Shown piece after piece: positions 9,310 to 38,534 of a stretch of DNA of 39,380 bases. The stretch spans positions 1 to 39,380 of the forward strand of contig CALUWU010000036.1 in assembly GCA_944324555.1 (NCBI GenBank), read 5' to 3'. The translations under genes were made by a program, and so were the position numbers. Each line of letters starts with the position of its first letter. Positions within the stretch are counted from its first letter, which is position 1. The stretch is from an uncultured Desulfovibrio sp. (GTDB lineage Bacteria > Desulfobacterota > Desulfovibrionia > Desulfovibrionales > Desulfovibrionaceae). The notes under the pieces are model-generated. The model saw only the letters and a program-made list of their open reading frames with translations. It did not search any database and was not told the origin of the DNA.

Positions 9310-9783
9310 ATGAACAGTTTGGGTTCCCGAATAAGGCAGATCAGAGGAACTGAAAGTCAGGAAACGTTTGCCGCAAGGATCGGCGTCAGCAAGGGGTCCA
9401 TCGGCGGCTATGAACGGGACGAAAATTCCCCCAGCGCCGACGTGATACTGAAAATTTGTTCGAAAGCCAATATTTCGGTTGAATGGCTCATGACCGGACG
9501 CGGCGCCATGCGCGCAGCCGCAATGGACGAGGGCGTCGCGGCGTCCTCGCCTGAACGGCCCGCGACGCAGCTGGACGCGAAGCTGGAACGGGTCGAGGCG
9601 CAGCGCGACGATCTGCTGGCCGAAAATCGGCGACTGCATCAGGAGAACGCGGCGTTGCTGCGCCAGAACGGCGACCTGTGCGAGCGCATCGCGCGTCTGG
9701 AAGGCGCGCTGGGCCAGCTTCAGGAGGGAAATCCCTCTCTTTTTGACGAGCGGCGGAATACCCGCCGCAATGAGCGGCTGTAG
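9310..9783 (+). CDS. XRE-family transcriptional regulator with C-terminal coiled coil
   Basis: A 157-residue protein. Residues 1-70 are a lambda-repressor-like helix-turn-helix (SLGSRIRQIRGTESQETFAARIGVSKGSIGGYERDENSPS, written here as SLGSRIRQIRG then ETFAARIGVSKGSIGGYERD), ending with VEWLMTGRGAM, typical of phage CI-like regulators. Residues ~95-140 are a leucine-rich heptad region (LLAENRRLHQENAALL), predicted to dimerise. No LexA-like peptidase domain. The ATG at 9310 has GGAG ten bases upstream; in-frame sequence before it is AT-rich operator DNA. Divergent from the glycan cluster, with palindromes between them, so autoregulation and glycan control are inferred. Confidence 0.82.
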   Translation: MNSLGSRIRQIRGTESQETFAARIGVSKGSIGGYERDENSPSADVILKICSKANISVEWLMTGRGAMRAAAMDEGVAASSPERPATQLDAKLERVEAQRDDLLAENRRLHQENAALLRQNGDLCERIARLEGALGQLQEGNPSLFDERRNTRRNERL

Positions 9784-32850: not shown

Positions 32851-33036
32851 AGGGGGAAGAAACCCCTTTGCTCTGCTGTCGATGCCCGTAAGGTGCCAAG
32901 GCGCCTAACGGGCACGGCCTGCGGCTGCCCGTCGGGTCGCTGCTCGCGGCAAAAAGGGCCCAGCCTTTCCGGAGGAAAGGCGTTCCCGTGGCTCCCCCTC
33001 AAACTCCCCCATCTTCCCCAAAACCCGCGCATGATG
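32851..33036 (+). repeat. Dispersed repeat R2, long copy
   Basis: About 186 bp downstream of the arylsulfotransferase-like gene. It starts GAGGGGGAAGAAACCCCTTTG, in two blocks GAGGGGGAAG and AAACCCCTTTG. The internal segments GCTGCTGTCGATGCCCGTA, CGGGCACGGCCTGCGGC and CAGCCTTTCC-GAGGAAAGGCGTTCCCGT match the inverted copy at 38320-38512. Its end (CCCCCTCAAACTCCCCC, then CCAAAACCCGCGC) matches the element at 11293. No coding capacity. Confidence 0.8.
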
Positions 33037-33536: not shown

Positions 33537-33560
33537 CTCAAAAAAGAGACACGCGGATGA

Positions 33561-33640
33561 CGACCATGTGAGAGCGCGCCGCCGGCGCCGCCGAAGGGGA
33601 AAGGGAAACCGAATCTCTCAGGCACAAGGGAACATGGTCG
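33561..33640 (+). ncRNA. Glycine riboswitch (single aptamer)
   Basis: P1 is a perfect 9-bp stem (CGACCATGT at 33561-33569 with ACATGGTCG at 33632-33640). Inside is the conserved glycine aptamer core: GAGAG pairing with CTCTC, the CCGAAGGGG block at 33591-33599, and AATCTCTCAGGCA at 33612-33624 followed by AAGGG. Only one aptamer is seen; the classic tandem partner is absent. It controls the grdX-grdE-grdB genes downstream, directly tying glycine level to glycine-reductase expression. Confidence 0.92.
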
Positions 33641-33656
33641 GACGCACTCTGAAATT

Positions 33657-33698: not shown

Positions 33699-34223
33699 AT
33701 GGCGTTTATCCTGCTGACCAACAATCCACGTATGCGGCTCTTTGCGCCGGGGAACAACTGACTCCCCTGGTCGGAGCTGCGTCCGCACGGCGTGCGGACC
33801 TCCCTGTCTTCCTCCTTTTCCTGCTTCCTTTCCGACGCGGCGGCGGTTCATGTTCTGACCGCCGGGCGCGATCTCGTCCATCTTGGCTGGCGTCTGCTGC
33901 ACCATCCGCTCTACGGTAATTTCCGTCCGCGCCAGCAGCCCTACCGCTCCCTTCTGCTCGCATCGTCCGACCGCGTCCCGGCTCGCCCCGACGTGGACGG
34001 CGATTCCCTGCGTCTTGTGGAAGAAGCGGCGGCCGTCTACGCCGCCGCCCCCGGCCCGCGTCCGGCGGACGTTCCGCCGGCCCTGCGCCAGTCCTGTTCC
34101 CTTCTGGATCTCGAATTGTTGCGGCATACGCTGGAAACGTACGACATCCGGCCCGCAACGGAATGCATCACTCATCGCACGCACGGCACGGAGCCGTGCA
34201 AGGAGGCTGGTCGTGAAGCTTGA
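33699..34223 (+). CDS. grdX: GrdX-family protein with in-frame UGA at codon 21
   Basis: Read through one UGA, the frame is 175 codons long. It begins MAFILLTNNP (GrdX proteins begin with a similar hydrophobic strand and TNNP). After the UGA it continues into the GrdX core: AGRDLVHLGWRLLHHPLYGNF and RPRQQPYRSLLL (~residues 56-88). Codon 21 (33759-33761) is TGA. A hairpin at 33781-33799 with a GGC loop lies 19 bases after it, like the one after the Sec codon of grdB. About 20 residues around the UGA exceed what I recall for the family. The frame ends 11 bases inside grdE, implying translational coupling. GrdX is a small protein of unknown function in glycine-reductase operons. Alternatives to Sec insertion: nonsense mutation, or internal GTG start at 33792. 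Confidence 0.75.
33781..33799 (+). promoter_or_regulatory. Candidate bacterial SECIS hairpin in grdX
   Basis: GTCCGCAC pairs perfectly with GTGCGGAC around a GGC loop. The loop starts 27 bases after the UGA, inside the spacing reported for SelB-dependent elements (roughly 16-37), and begins with G as those elements require. Compare the grdB hairpin at 36572-36588. Confidence 0.6.
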
Positions 34224-35499
34224 ACTGCACAAGATACGCGTCTCGCAACTTCGTTTCGGACCGTCCACCGGTCTTGACGGAAGCTGCCTCGTCGTCAACG
34301 CCGAGGAACTGCGCGCCCTGCTGCTGGAAGACTCCCACCTGGCGGACGTGACGCTGGATATCGCCCACCCCGGCGACAGCGTCCGCATCATGCCCGTCAA
34401 GGACGCCATCGAGCCCCGCTGCAAGCTGGAAGGCCCCGGCGAGGTCTTCCCCGGCTTCATCGGACCGGTGGAAACCGTCGGCGAAGGCAAGACCCTCGTG
34501 CTTGAAGGCATGTGCGTCCTGACGACCGGCCGCCTCGTGGCCGCGCAGGAAGGCATCGTGGACATGTCCGGCCCCGGCGCGGACTACACGCCCTTTTCGC
34601 GCACCTGCAACCTTGCCGTCGTCCTGCGCCCGCGCGACGACGTGAAGCTCCACGAAGCCGAACACGCCTGCCGTATCGCCGGCCTCAAGGCCGCCCATTA
34701 TCTGGCCTCGCACTGCAAGGGCCGCCCGGCCGACAGCGTGGAATGCTACGAAGCTCCCTCCCTGCGCGAAGGCCTCGCCGCCTGCGGCGATCTGCCGAAG
34801 GTCGCCTATATCTACATGCTGCAATCCCAGGGCCTGCTGCACGACACCTGGGTCTACGGCGTGGACGCCAAGCGCATCCTGCCCACCCTCATTTCCCCCA
34901 CGGAAATCATGGACGGCGCCATCGTGTCCGGCAACTGCGTGTCGGCCTGCGACAAGAACAATACCTACGTTCATCTGAACAACCCCATCATCCGCGAACT
35001 CTACAGGCGGCACGGCAAGGAACTGAACTTCGCGGGCGTGATCATCACCAATGAGAACGTGACCCTCGCCGACAAGCAGCGTTCCTCCTCCTACGCCGTC
35101 AAGCTGGCCTCCATGCTCGGCGTGGACGCCGCGGTCATCTCCGAAGAAGGGTTCGGCAATCCCGACGCGGACCTCGTCCTCAACTGCGTGAAGGCTGAAA
35201 AGGCTGGCATCCGCACCGTGCTGGTAACGGACGAGTTCGCCGGCGCCAACGGCGCAAGCCAGTCCCTCGCCGACTCCTGCGTGGAAGGCGACGCCTGCGT
35301 CACCGGCGGCAACGCCAACGCGACCATCATCCTGCCGCCCATGGACAAGGTCATTGGCGATATCGCCCAGGCCGACGTCATCGCCGGCGGCTTCTTCGGT
35401 TCGCTCAAGCCCGACGGCTCGCTGGAAGTGGAGCTTCAGGCCATCATGGCCGCCACCAACGAACTGGGCTTCAATCGTCTCGGCGCCTACACCATCTAA
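34213..35499 (+). CDS. grdE: Glycine reductase component B proprotein (alpha/beta, GrdE type)
   Basis: 428 residues, the family length. Component B binds glycine as a Schiff base and hands a carboxymethyl group to the selenoprotein GrdA. The proprotein self-cleaves at Asn241-Cys242 in GAIVSGNCVSACDKN, creating the carbonyl cofactor; this position matches the family. Other blocks: PGDSVRIMPVKDAIEPR, QEGIVDMSGPG, YMLQSQGLLHDTWVYGVD and TNENVTLADKQRSSS. GTG start at 34213 with AAGGAGG six bases upstream. It overlaps grdX by 11 bases and is followed by grdB after 17 bases. The sarcosine or betaine homologue (GrdG/GrdI) is possible, but the glycine riboswitch and grdX favour glycine. Confidence 0.9.
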   Translation: MKLELHKIRVSQLRFGPSTGLDGSCLVVNAEELRALLLEDSHLADVTLDIAHPGDSVRIMPVKDAIEPRCKLEGPGEVFPGFIGPVETVGEGKTLVLEGMCVLTTGRLVAAQEGIVDMSGPGADYTPFSRTCNLAVVLRPRDDVKLHEAEHACRIAGLKAAHYLASHCKGRPADSVECYEAPSLREGLAACGDLPKVAYIYMLQSQGLLHDTWVYGVDAKRILPTLISPTEIMDGAIVSGNCVSACDKNNTYVHLNNPIIRELYRRHGKELNFAGVIITNENVTLADKQRSSSYAVKLASMLGVDAAVISEEGFGNPDADLVLNCVKAEKAGIRTVLVTDEFAGANGASQSLADSCVEGDACVTGGNANATIILPPMDKVIGDIAQADVIAGGFFGSLKPDGSLEVELQAIMAATNELGFNRLGAYTI

Positions 35500-35516: not shown

Positions 35517-36818
35517 ATGAGCTATCGCATCGTTCATTATATAAATCAGTTCTTCGGCGGCGTGGGCGGCGAGGAGAAGGCCGATCTGCCCCCGGAAATC
35601 CGCGAGGGCGTCGCCGGCCCCGGCCTCGGTCTTGCCAAGCTCCTTGGCTCCGAGGTGGAAATTGTCGCGACCATCGTCTGCGGCGACAACTACTGCGTCT
35701 CCCATCAGGAAGAAGTGGGCGCGTTCATCGTCGAGACGCTCCGCAAGCATGACGCGCAGGGCCTGATCGCCGGCCCCGCCTTCAACGCCGGCCGCTACGG
35801 CATGGCCTGCGGCTTCGCCTGCTCGGCCGCCGCCCAGGCCGGCTTTACCGCCCTCGCGGCCATGTATCCCGAAAACCCCGGCGTGGAACTCTACAAGGCC
35901 GCCGCCTACATCGTGCCCACCAGCGACAACGCGCGCGGCATGGGCGCGGCCCTGCCGCCCATGGCCGCCCTCATGGGCAAGCTGCTGCGCGGCGAAAAGC
36001 TCGGCAGCCCCGAGAGCGAGGGCTATATTGAGCGCGGCGTGCGCGTGAATACCTTCTATGAAAAGATCGGCGCCGAACGCGCCGTGGACATGCTGCTCAA
36101 GAAGCTGCGCGGCGAACCCTTCGTCACCGAGTACAAGATGCCCGTCTTTGACCGCGTGACCCCGCGTCCCGGCGTGGAAGACATGACCCGCGCCACCATC
36201 GCCCTGGTCACCTCCGGCGGCATCGTGCCGCAGGGCAACCCCGATCATATCGCCGCCTCCAGCGCCCGCAACTATGGCGAATACGACATCAGCGGCGTCA
36301 ACGACCTTCAGGCCGGCGCCTATCAGACCGCCCACGGCGGCTACGATCAGACCTACGCCAATCAGGACCCCGACCGCGTGCTGCCCGTGGACGTGCTGCG
36401 CGATCTGGAAAAGGAAGGCCGCATCGGCAAGCTGCATCACCTTTACTACGCCACCGTCGGCAACGGCACGGCCGTGAGCAACGCCCGCAAGTGGGGCAGG
36501 GAAATCGGCGAAAAGCTGCGGGCCGCCAACGTGCAGGCCGTCATCCTCACATCCACCTGAGGCACCTGCACGCGTTGCGGCGCAACGCTTGCCAAGGCCA
36601 TTGAAGACGCGGGCGACATGCCGGTCGTGCATATGGCGTCCATCGTGCCCATTTCCCAGAGCGTGGGCGCGAACCGCATCATCCCCACGGTCGCCATTCC
36701 GCACCCGCTGGGCGATCCCACCCTTGACGCCGCCGAGGAAAAGGCGCTCCGGCGCAAGCTGGTGGAAAAGGCCCTCGCGGCCCTTTCGACCAACGTCGAC
36801 GAACAGACGGTGTTCTAG
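35517..36818 (+). CDS. grdB: Glycine reductase component B selenoprotein (gamma, GrdB type)
   Basis: 433 residues when the TGA at 36558-36560 is read as selenocysteine (Sec348). The protein continues in frame for 85 codons with full family similarity to an EQTVF end. The motif is STUGTCTRCGAT, i.e. U-x2-C-x2-C, identical in style to clostridial GrdB. Earlier blocks: VHYINQFFGGVGGEEKADL, CGDNY, AGPAFNAGRYGMACG, PVFDRVTPRPG, TSGGIVPQGNP, AHGGYDQTYAN and TVGNGTAV. It cleaves the C-N bond of glycine together with GrdE. A hairpin suited to SelB lies at 36572-36588. A stop-at-TGA reading would give a 347-residue fragment and is wrong. GGGGAG precedes the ATG. GrdF/GrdH-type substrate use is not excluded. 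Confidence 0.93.
36572..36588 (+). promoter_or_regulatory. Bacterial SECIS hairpin in grdB
   Basis: GCGTTGC pairs perfectly with GCAACGC around a GGC loop that begins 18 bases after the UGA. Position and guanine-starting apical loop fit SelB recognition. The loop and its closing C-G pair are identical to the hairpin after the UGA in grdX. Confidence 0.75.
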
Positions 36819-36967: not shown

Positions 36968-37882
36968 ATGGAACAGAAGGAACTTGTGATCATCGGCGGC
37001 GGCCCCGCCGGTCTGACCGCCGCTATTTACGGCAAGCGCGCCGGTCTTGATCTGGTGGTGCTGGAAAAGGGCTCGTTCGGCGGGCAGATTCTCATCACCA
37101 GCGAGGTGGAAAACTGGCCGGGGCAGACCATGATTTCCGGGACGGATATCGGCAAGACCTTTCATGATCACGCCGAGCATCTGGGCTGCGAATTCCGCCG
37201 CGCCGAAGTGACGGGCATCACCCCCGGCGACGGGACGCACGTCGTGCATACCAGCGCGGGCGACATTGGCGCGAAAGCCGTGATCATCGCCACGGGCGCG
37301 GCCTTCCGGCGTCTGGGCTGCCCCGGAGAGGCCGCGCTGACCGGCGCGGGCGTGAGCTATTGCGCGGTCTGCGACGGCGCTTTCTTCACCGACGAGGAAG
37401 TGGCCGTCATCGGCGGCGGCAACACCGCCGTCGAGGAAGCCTGCTACCTGACGCGCTTTGCCTCGAAAGTCTATATCGTGCATCGCCGCAACGAATTCCG
37501 CGCCGACCGCGTGCCCAGCGAGCGCGCCCTTTCCAACCCGAAAATCGTTCCCGTCTGGGATTCCGTGGTGGAAAGCATCAACGGCAAGGACCTCGTGGAG
37601 GGCATCACCGTCCGTAACGTCAAGACCGGCGAAACCTCCGACATCCCGCTCGCGGGCGTGTTCGTCTTTGTCGGCACCGTGCCGCAGCTCGATTTTCTGG
37701 GCGACCTGTGCCGCCGCGTCGACGGCGGCTGGATTGAAACCGATCGCCGCCTTCAGACCTCCATACCGGGCATCTTCGCCGCCGGAGACGTGCGCGACAC
37801 GCCCCTGCGGCAGGTCGTGACCGCCGCAGGCGACGGCGCCCTTGCCGCCATGTCAGCCTATCATCATATTGTCGGCGGTTAG
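36968..37882 (+). CDS. trxB: Thioredoxin reductase
   Basis: 304 residues, cytoplasmic flavoenzyme that passes electrons from NAD(P)H to thioredoxin. FAD motif LVIIGGGPAGLTAAIYGKRAG at the N terminus (in part GGGPAGLTAAIYG), then SFGGQI, redox-active CAVCDG (Cys-x2-Cys ~135), NAD(P) motif VAVIGGGNTAVEEA with HRRNEFRA, and the C-terminal GIFAAGDVRD. Known context: glycine reductase is regenerated by thioredoxin, and trxB/trxA genes commonly travel with grd genes, so this copy probably serves GrdA/GrdB. No trxA is in the window. The binding site before the ATG is AGAAGGG. Confidence 0.93.
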   Translation: MEQKELVIIGGGPAGLTAAIYGKRAGLDLVVLEKGSFGGQILITSEVENWPGQTMISGTDIGKTFHDHAEHLGCEFRRAEVTGITPGDGTHVVHTSAGDIGAKAVIIATGAAFRRLGCPGEAALTGAGVSYCAVCDGAFFTDEEVAVIGGGNTAVEEACYLTRFASKVYIVHRRNEFRADRVPSERALSNPKIVPVWDSVVESINGKDLVEGITVRNVKTGETSDIPLAGVFVFVGTVPQLDFLGDLCRRVDGGWIETDRRLQTSIPGIFAAGDVRDTPLRQVVTAAGDGALAAMSAYHHIVGG

Positions 37883-38245: not shown

Positions 38246-38534
38246 GGGCCTGTTAACGAAAATTTTAAGCTACTTCAATAAAATAGAGATTGGCTGCAAA
38301 TGCTTGCCACTCCCGTGCCCCTCTGAAAAAGCGCGCTGGGGAAGGGATGGGGGCCTGGGGGGAAGAACTACGGGAACGCCTTTCCGCAGGAAAGGCTGGC
38401 CCTCTCGCGCCGGCAGCGACCGGATGGCGGCCGCAGGCCGTGCCCGTTGCGACGAAGGAAGCTACGGGCATCGACAGCAGCGCTGAGGGGTTTCCCTTCC
38501 CCCCGAACAACTTAGGGATATTGTTAACAGACCC
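38246..38534 (-). mobile_element. MITE-like element with 12-bp terminal inverted repeats, carrying R2
   Basis: Left end GGGCCTGTTAAC (38246-38257); the right end (38523-38534) is the reverse complement of GGGTCTGTTAAC, 11 of 12 matching. Inside (about 38320-38512) is an inverted long R2. It has no room for a transposase. It looks like a non-autonomous element; whether the R2 copies elsewhere keep these ends was not seen. Confidence 0.6.

Follow-up and report, generated by a model that had tools for sequence, protein, structure and literature searches.

The glycine reductase cluster of an uncultured Desulfovibrio sp. opens with a grdX gene that is interrupted at codon 21 by an in-frame UGA, and the question it raises is whether this codon is read as selenocysteine (Sec) and, if so, to what end. 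The window, by which we mean the whole stretch of 39,380 nucleotides analysed here (GenBank assembly GCA_944324555.1, contig CALUWU010000036.1), belongs to a draft genome of 192 contigs that is 88% complete. The features of the locus are as follows:

33557..33644, + strand: glycine riboswitch aptamer (a single match), 5' of grdX; Rfam RF00504, 60.2 bits, gathering score 32
33699..34223, + strand: grdX, 174 codons including one internal UGA; NCBIfam NF038093, 69.2 bits
33759..33761, + strand: in-frame UGA, proposed selenocysteine codon 21 of grdX, kept in eight type I genes
33781..33799, + strand: SECIS-like hairpin in grdX, arms 33781-33788 and 33792-33799, loop GGC at 33789-33791
34213..35499, + strand: presumably grdE, GTG start; frame and stop from the sequence, name by position
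35517..36818, + strand: presumably grdB, read through the UGA at 36558-36560; open frame, name from its TSTUGTC motif
36572..36588, + strand: grdB SECIS hairpin, loop GGC, 18 nt after the grdB UGA
36968..37882, + strand: thioredoxin-reductase-like gene, presumably trxB, last of the cluster within the window; open frame, name suggested by its sequence

The grdX frame, beginning MAFILLTNNP, runs from the ATG at 33699 to the TGA at codon 21 and continues in the same frame to a second TGA at 34221-34223, where the gene terminates. Its product is a member of the GrdX family, scoring 69.2 bits against a curated NF038093 cut-off of 40, and has no match in Pfam. The GTG of grdE at 34213 overlaps the 3' end of grdX by 11 bases, and an AAGGAGG within grdX (34200-34206) is the likely ribosome-binding site of grdE. 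The hairpin behind the grdB UGA, GCGTTGC-GGC-GCAACGC, has a stem of 7 bp and the same GGC loop as that of grdX; Rfam SECIS_4 matches it at 36561-36598 with 36.1 bits, slightly under the gathering score of 38. The initial annotation had described the interrupted frame, the 8-bp grdX hairpin with its loop 27 nt past the UGA, the grdB hairpin at 18 nt and the 11-base overlap, and each of these was recovered, the coordinates of the interrupted frame being exact. A GrdA gene with its UGA was located in 11 of 13 genomes, lying on another contig in the window genome. At the grdA loci (L154-L166) the simple small-loop hairpin after the UGA is absent from 12 of 13 copies, and the grdA SECIS is therefore probably of another form. 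We also note that inverted copies of an intergenic repeat (32859-33013 and 38346-38494), whose arms match in order over 72 nt (74%), 32 nt (91%) and 23 nt (96%), flank the glycine reductase cluster.

The window hairpin, GTCCGCAC-GGC-GTGCGGAC, was compared with the bacterial SECIS model as given in a 2026 review (PMC13188914), in which a small loop with an early G caps a stem of 4-16 bp at a spacing of 16-37 nt. Its 3-nt loop and 8-bp stem lie within the 3-9 nt apical loop and 4-16 bp upper stem of the model, a G occupies loop positions 1-2, and the loop begins 27 nt past the UGA, exceeding the spacing in grdB (18 nt). The folding energy of -20.4 kcal/mol for the UGA plus 57 nt, maybe a longer stretch than the model means, lies below the limit of -7.5 kcal/mol. 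Taken alone, the hairpin is only moderately unusual: of 2000 dinucleotide shuffles, 0.65% produced a stem of 8 bp capped, within the allowed range, by a small loop containing G. The folding energy of a 60-nt segment gives z = -1.35 at the grdX site and z = 0.17 at the accepted grdB site, so that energy is not decisive. Rather, we judged the hairpin by its conservation, since all eight genes with a UGA of this kind, here called type I, keep the UGA, a stem of 8-9 bp and the 27-nt spacing.

GrdX proteins over the cut-off were found in 13 of 79 genomes in a search of the genus, in 17 of 247 in the family, in 7 of 395 in the phylum and in 3 of 41 in the order of Candidatus Adiutrix. Among the 13 GrdX-bearing genomes of the genus, four (G000, G020, G022 and G098) have the codon-21 UGA in common and four (G002, G025, G029 and G065) have no UGA in grdX. 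The type I genes comprise that of the window, those of three sister species and four from other Desulfobacterota, three of them from Candidatus Adiutrix. The sequence of the stem changes between these genes while the UGA and the spacing stay: the gene of TD116_bin81 (G136, L042) has GCCTGCAA-GGT-TTGCAGGC, again at 27 nt, and those of Candidatus Adiutrix (L035, L038, L040) have GTCCGCAG-GTT-CTGCGGGC or alike. The number of the UGA codon ranges from 20 to 22 at constant spacing. In the alignment, the hairpin segment of type I is absent from most other GrdX rows, and the UGA-free comparison at this segment comes from a single row (L037, the same gene as L030) of Desulfovibrio OttesenSCG-928-A18, in which the UGA has become UGG or was lost with adjacent codons; in both cases the hairpin is missing. 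The check on relatives proposed in the initial annotation had a mixed outcome: the three nearest species keep both the UGA and the hairpin, whereas clade C (four congeneric species) and D. cuneatus have neither. The GrdX tree places the absences in clade C and in D. cuneatus as separate gains or losses of the UGA.

Selection on the RNA is apparent within type I, where seven distinct sequences have all 56 of 56 base-pair cells paired. The covariation score of 0.381 compares with a shuffled mean of 0.188 and was matched by 1 of 500 shuffles; doubly changed pairs number two, a count that 57 of 500 shuffles matched. In each of the six UGA groups, which together cover 25 of the 26 UGA genes, synonymous change is strongly reduced within the hairpin, with differences in the hairpin and in the rest of the gene of 0.00/0.19, 0.22/0.54, 0.00/0.21, 0.08/0.53, 0.17/0.44 and 0.13/0.50; the Fisher values of this test are a guide only, since the sequence pairs are not independent. 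The six UGA-free control groups gave 0.28/0.30, 0.56/0.50, 0.30/0.43, 0.62/0.54, 0.68/0.56 and 0.25/0.25 over the hairpin codons of types II-IV, and 0.25/0.30, 0.50/0.51, 0.27/0.43, 0.50/0.55, 0.62/0.57 and 0.21/0.25 over those of type V. A reduction is seen in one control group (0.30/0.43 and 0.27/0.43) and is weaker than in the UGA groups. The frame past the UGA is constrained as well. For the window gene, dN/dS in this part is 0.22-0.27 against three sister genes, and pairs with estimable dS gave 0.09-0.36 (22 of the 26 genes, TD116 and Adiutrix being left out), except for 0.54 in the near-identical pair G089/G017; in three type III pairs dS was saturated. Comparison shows the codons behind the UGA to be under purifying selection as protein, and shows the UGA itself to be part of a selected UGA-plus-hairpin element that fits the published bacterial SECIS model.

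The same arrangement recurs at other codons. A survey of Desulfobacterota and Synergistota genomes yielded at least 26 GrdX genes in which an in-frame UGA occurs early, and these fall into five position types. The UGA-to-loop distance, 19-27 nt overall, is 27 nt in type I (eight genes), 20 in type II (five), 19 in type III (four), 21 in type IV (three) and 24 in type V (six). The stem has 6-9 bp and is uninterrupted in 25 of the 26 genes, G912 having one mismatch, and in all 25 the 3-nt loop starts with G. In type II, from Desulfovibrio (G017, G021, G067, G071, G089), the UGA is codon 28, in a different part of the protein, and is followed at 20 nt by TCGCGC-GGC-GCGCGA, a short hairpin that is unremarkable by shuffling (P 0.09-0.18). 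GrdX is present in 125 of 185 Synergistota genomes, and among the matches listed at least 13 contain one TGA, a lower bound also because a UGA upstream of the matched stretch would be missed; these 13 genes form three groups, whose stems have 8-9 bp and whose UGA-to-loop distances are 19, 21 and 24 nt. A UGA conserved in other species, as looked for in a selenoprotein family, is therefore present, both as eight genes of the same type and as 26 with an early UGA. The GrdX alignment has 99 rows after duplicates were dropped, 25 with a UGA and 74 without. In the GrdX tree, types II-V each form one supported clade adjoining UGA-free rows, whereas three changes are required for type I, inside which the UGA-free D. 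cuneatus and OttesenSCG-928-A18 are nested; the number of UGA gains is rough, given the few columns, unsettled bootstrap, midpoint root and some long branches. Second GrdX-like proteins, all UGA-free, were seen at three loci (L024, L025, L031), and near those of L024 and L031 lies a grdB-like gene that has a Sec UGA and may serve a different reductase substrate.

The machinery for Sec is present in most of these genomes. A SelB search of 28 genomes, 26 with a UGA grdX and two with a UGA-free one, gave scores over the cut-off in 25, among them 23 of the 26 UGA genomes (the others being G020, G017 and G727). The tRNA-Sec likewise passed in 23 of 26 (the others being G020, G726 and G912); its best scores range from 65 to 83 bits, and here the score weighs more than the passing because 5 of 14 control genomes also pass the cut-off. 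Only G020, a 79% complete draft, had neither over the cut-off. The window genome has both, at 329.7 bits for SelB and 82 bits for tRNA-Sec, as a selenoprotein-encoding organism should. In Candidatus Adiutrix, genes for the Sec machinery and for glycine reductase lie near each other: selB (189-2072) adjoins grdX (match 2606-2935) on contig G726:C297, and at L040 the tRNA-Sec (9642-9735) is about 5 kb downstream of grdX.

The conservation of UGA and hairpin, the selection on both RNA and protein, and the presence of SelB and tRNA-Sec in most of the genomes make Sec insertion very likely, and we infer with high confidence that SelB with Sec-tRNA decodes the grdX UGA as selenocysteine. Three other accounts of the UGA were weighed. 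A sequencing error, a recent nonsense mutation or a pseudogene, suggested by the draft state of the window genome and the first two named in the initial annotation as what would overturn its reading, has a negligible chance of being correct: a UGA of the same type occurs in the genomes of eight species, among them the sister species and other Desulfobacterota, and both the frame past it and the hairpin are constrained. We rejected this account on the grounds of conservation. The UGA might instead end a short upstream frame, with the real start of grdX downstream, for example at GTG 33792, from which a frame of 143 codons is open. However, the N-terminal strand and its invariant NN are encoded ahead of the UGA position in UGA-containing and UGA-free genes alike, the GTG sits within an arm of the hairpin, and AlphaFold models the N-terminal strand of the read-through protein confidently (pLDDT 96 for the first block); the invariant NN and the model together led us to judge a downstream start very unlikely. 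The model as a whole has a pLDDT of 88.2 and a pTM of 0.82; its best Foldseek match in the PDB reached only E = 0.72, and a sequence search of the PDB with GrdX returned no match up to E = 1. Somewhat less improbable, if still unlikely, is that a near-cognate tRNA reads through the UGA without Sec, the hairpin being a general stimulator of read-through. UGA-C is a leaky stop context, and seven of the eight type I genes have it, but the base after the UGA differs in the other groups, the spacing and loop obey the SECIS rules, and the Sec machinery is there in most of these genomes.

What the Sec codon is for is less firmly answered. The initial annotation had offered Sec insertion or a selenium switch; the former gained from conservation across genera, the recurrence of a similar element at other codons in a second phylum, covariation, reduced synonymous change, purifying selection and the presence of SelB and tRNA-Sec, and the latter fits the non-homologous Sec positions, the early codon, the riboswitch upstream and the lack of a predominant Cys. 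We suggest, with moderate confidence, that the UGA-plus-hairpin element acts mainly as a selenium gate on the operon. Here grdX would be a leader gene downstream of the glycine riboswitch. With Sec-tRNA in short supply, ribosomes would halt after 20 codons, leaving about 460 nt of grdX mRNA untranslated, its C-rich tract included; polarity through Rho, the presence of which is assumed, and the uncoupling of grdE from grdX at their overlap would both reduce expression from the genes for glycine reductase. The GrdA and GrdB of this enzyme need Sec anyway, and the output of the operon would amount to glycine AND selenium before any selenoenzyme is built.

A glycine riboswitch precedes grdX at 25 of the 26 UGA loci (that of the window, 13 of 14 in one scan and 11 of 11 in another), the sole miss (L110) being at a contig edge with just 160 bases upstream of the match. 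In the seven Synergistota loci that were laid out, grdX precedes trxA-, grdE-, grdA- and grdB-like frames. In the 16 UGA genes measured, the part of grdX left untranslated by termination at the UGA would be 300-519 nt long, and it holds a tract that ranks in the 98th to 100th percentile of its locus for C over G. Neither the riboswitch nor the tract is specific to the UGA, however, because UGA-free grdX genes have both: the riboswitch in three of three scanned loci, and a C-rich tract at the 89th to 100th percentile in the 27 loci, out of 28, that gave a value. The tract as a UGA-specific Rho site was rejected on this account, and it goes rather with a protein motif. In the window, the 78 bases at 33902-33979 within grdX have almost the highest C over G and span the HPLYGN...QQPYRS motif, and similar tracts occur in most other grdX loci measured. 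The coupling of grdX and grdE is possibly not strict, as grdE has a good ribosome-binding site of its own.

It is possible, though doubtful, that GrdX represents a new selenoprotein family of the conventional kind, in which Sec in a flexible segment past the first strand serves redox or ligand chemistry and any regulation is incidental. In some UGA-free Synergistota a Cys (TNNxxLC) stands at the position of the type V Sec, and the type III Sec adjoins a Cys column; Cys at or beside the position of U in these proteins leaves some room for a chemical role. Between NN and RD, Cys makes up 2.6% of residues compared with 1.7% elsewhere, at least one being present in 21 of 47 representatives, and of two alignments, one sets the type II Sec opposite a Cys of L027 and the other does not. 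Against this, Cys does not replace Sec in most UGA-free homologues: it occurs at the type V column in 6 of 47 UGA-free representatives and beside the type III column in 9 of 47, the counts covering these two columns and the other types being judged by eye. The Sec position varies by group, leaving no common active-site residue, two UGA-free rows lie inside the type I clade, and the window protein shows neither a UxxC nor a CxxU motif. At the aligned position, Gly (three rows) or Asp (one) is found in the UGA-free sisters of type II, and with a residue that moves about in this way a catalytic role is hard to see. Two facts lead us to prefer a selenium gate to a redox role, namely that the position of Sec is not conserved and that a glycine riboswitch precedes 25 of the 26 genes. 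On sequence evidence, Sec insertion at the grdX UGA, mainly as a selenium gate, is on balance the probable explanation overall. For the fuller proposal, that grdX is a selenium-sensing leader gene whose Sec codon apparently arose at least five times, at different codons, and was kept for regulation and not for chemistry, we consider the chances to be even.

The proposed element has partial likenesses among known systems. With the bacterial selenoprotein genes of the grdB and fdhF type it shares the in-frame UGA, a hairpin whose small loop contains a G and lies 16-37 nt downstream, and SelB and tRNA-Sec; unlike in these, the Sec position of grdX is unconserved and mostly has no Cys counterpart, and five position types occur in one small protein. 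The leader of E. coli selAB reportedly contains a SECIS-like element, a SelB-binding hairpin that is said to control expression rather than to serve catalysis (Thanbichler and Boeck, 2002), and the role proposed for the grdX hairpin would be of the same kind. The selAB element is reported to lie in an untranslated leader and to have no Sec codon, whereas the grdX hairpin lies inside the first gene, behind a UGA.

That GrdX had not been described as a selenoprotein, as the initial annotation supposed, agrees with a table of 119 selenoprotein families in PMC13188914, which includes GrdA and GrdB and not GrdX, the family (NF038093) to which the window protein belongs. Among the papers listed for GrdX, no title or start of an abstract treats it as a selenoprotein; the main text of the deep-Sep paper (PMC12013277) contains no 'grd', and the Sargasso Sea paper (PMC1088965) no 'grdx'. 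According to PMC13188914, bacterial selenoproteins are often detected by matching UGA to Cys among relatives, an approach that would tend to miss GrdX. If the UGA is indeed translated, ordinary gene callers would cut the UGA-type grdX genes short. If the gate reading is true, the 21st amino acid would here be encoded to sense the supply of selenium, and the grdX element would show how these anaerobes may decide on building glycine reductase.
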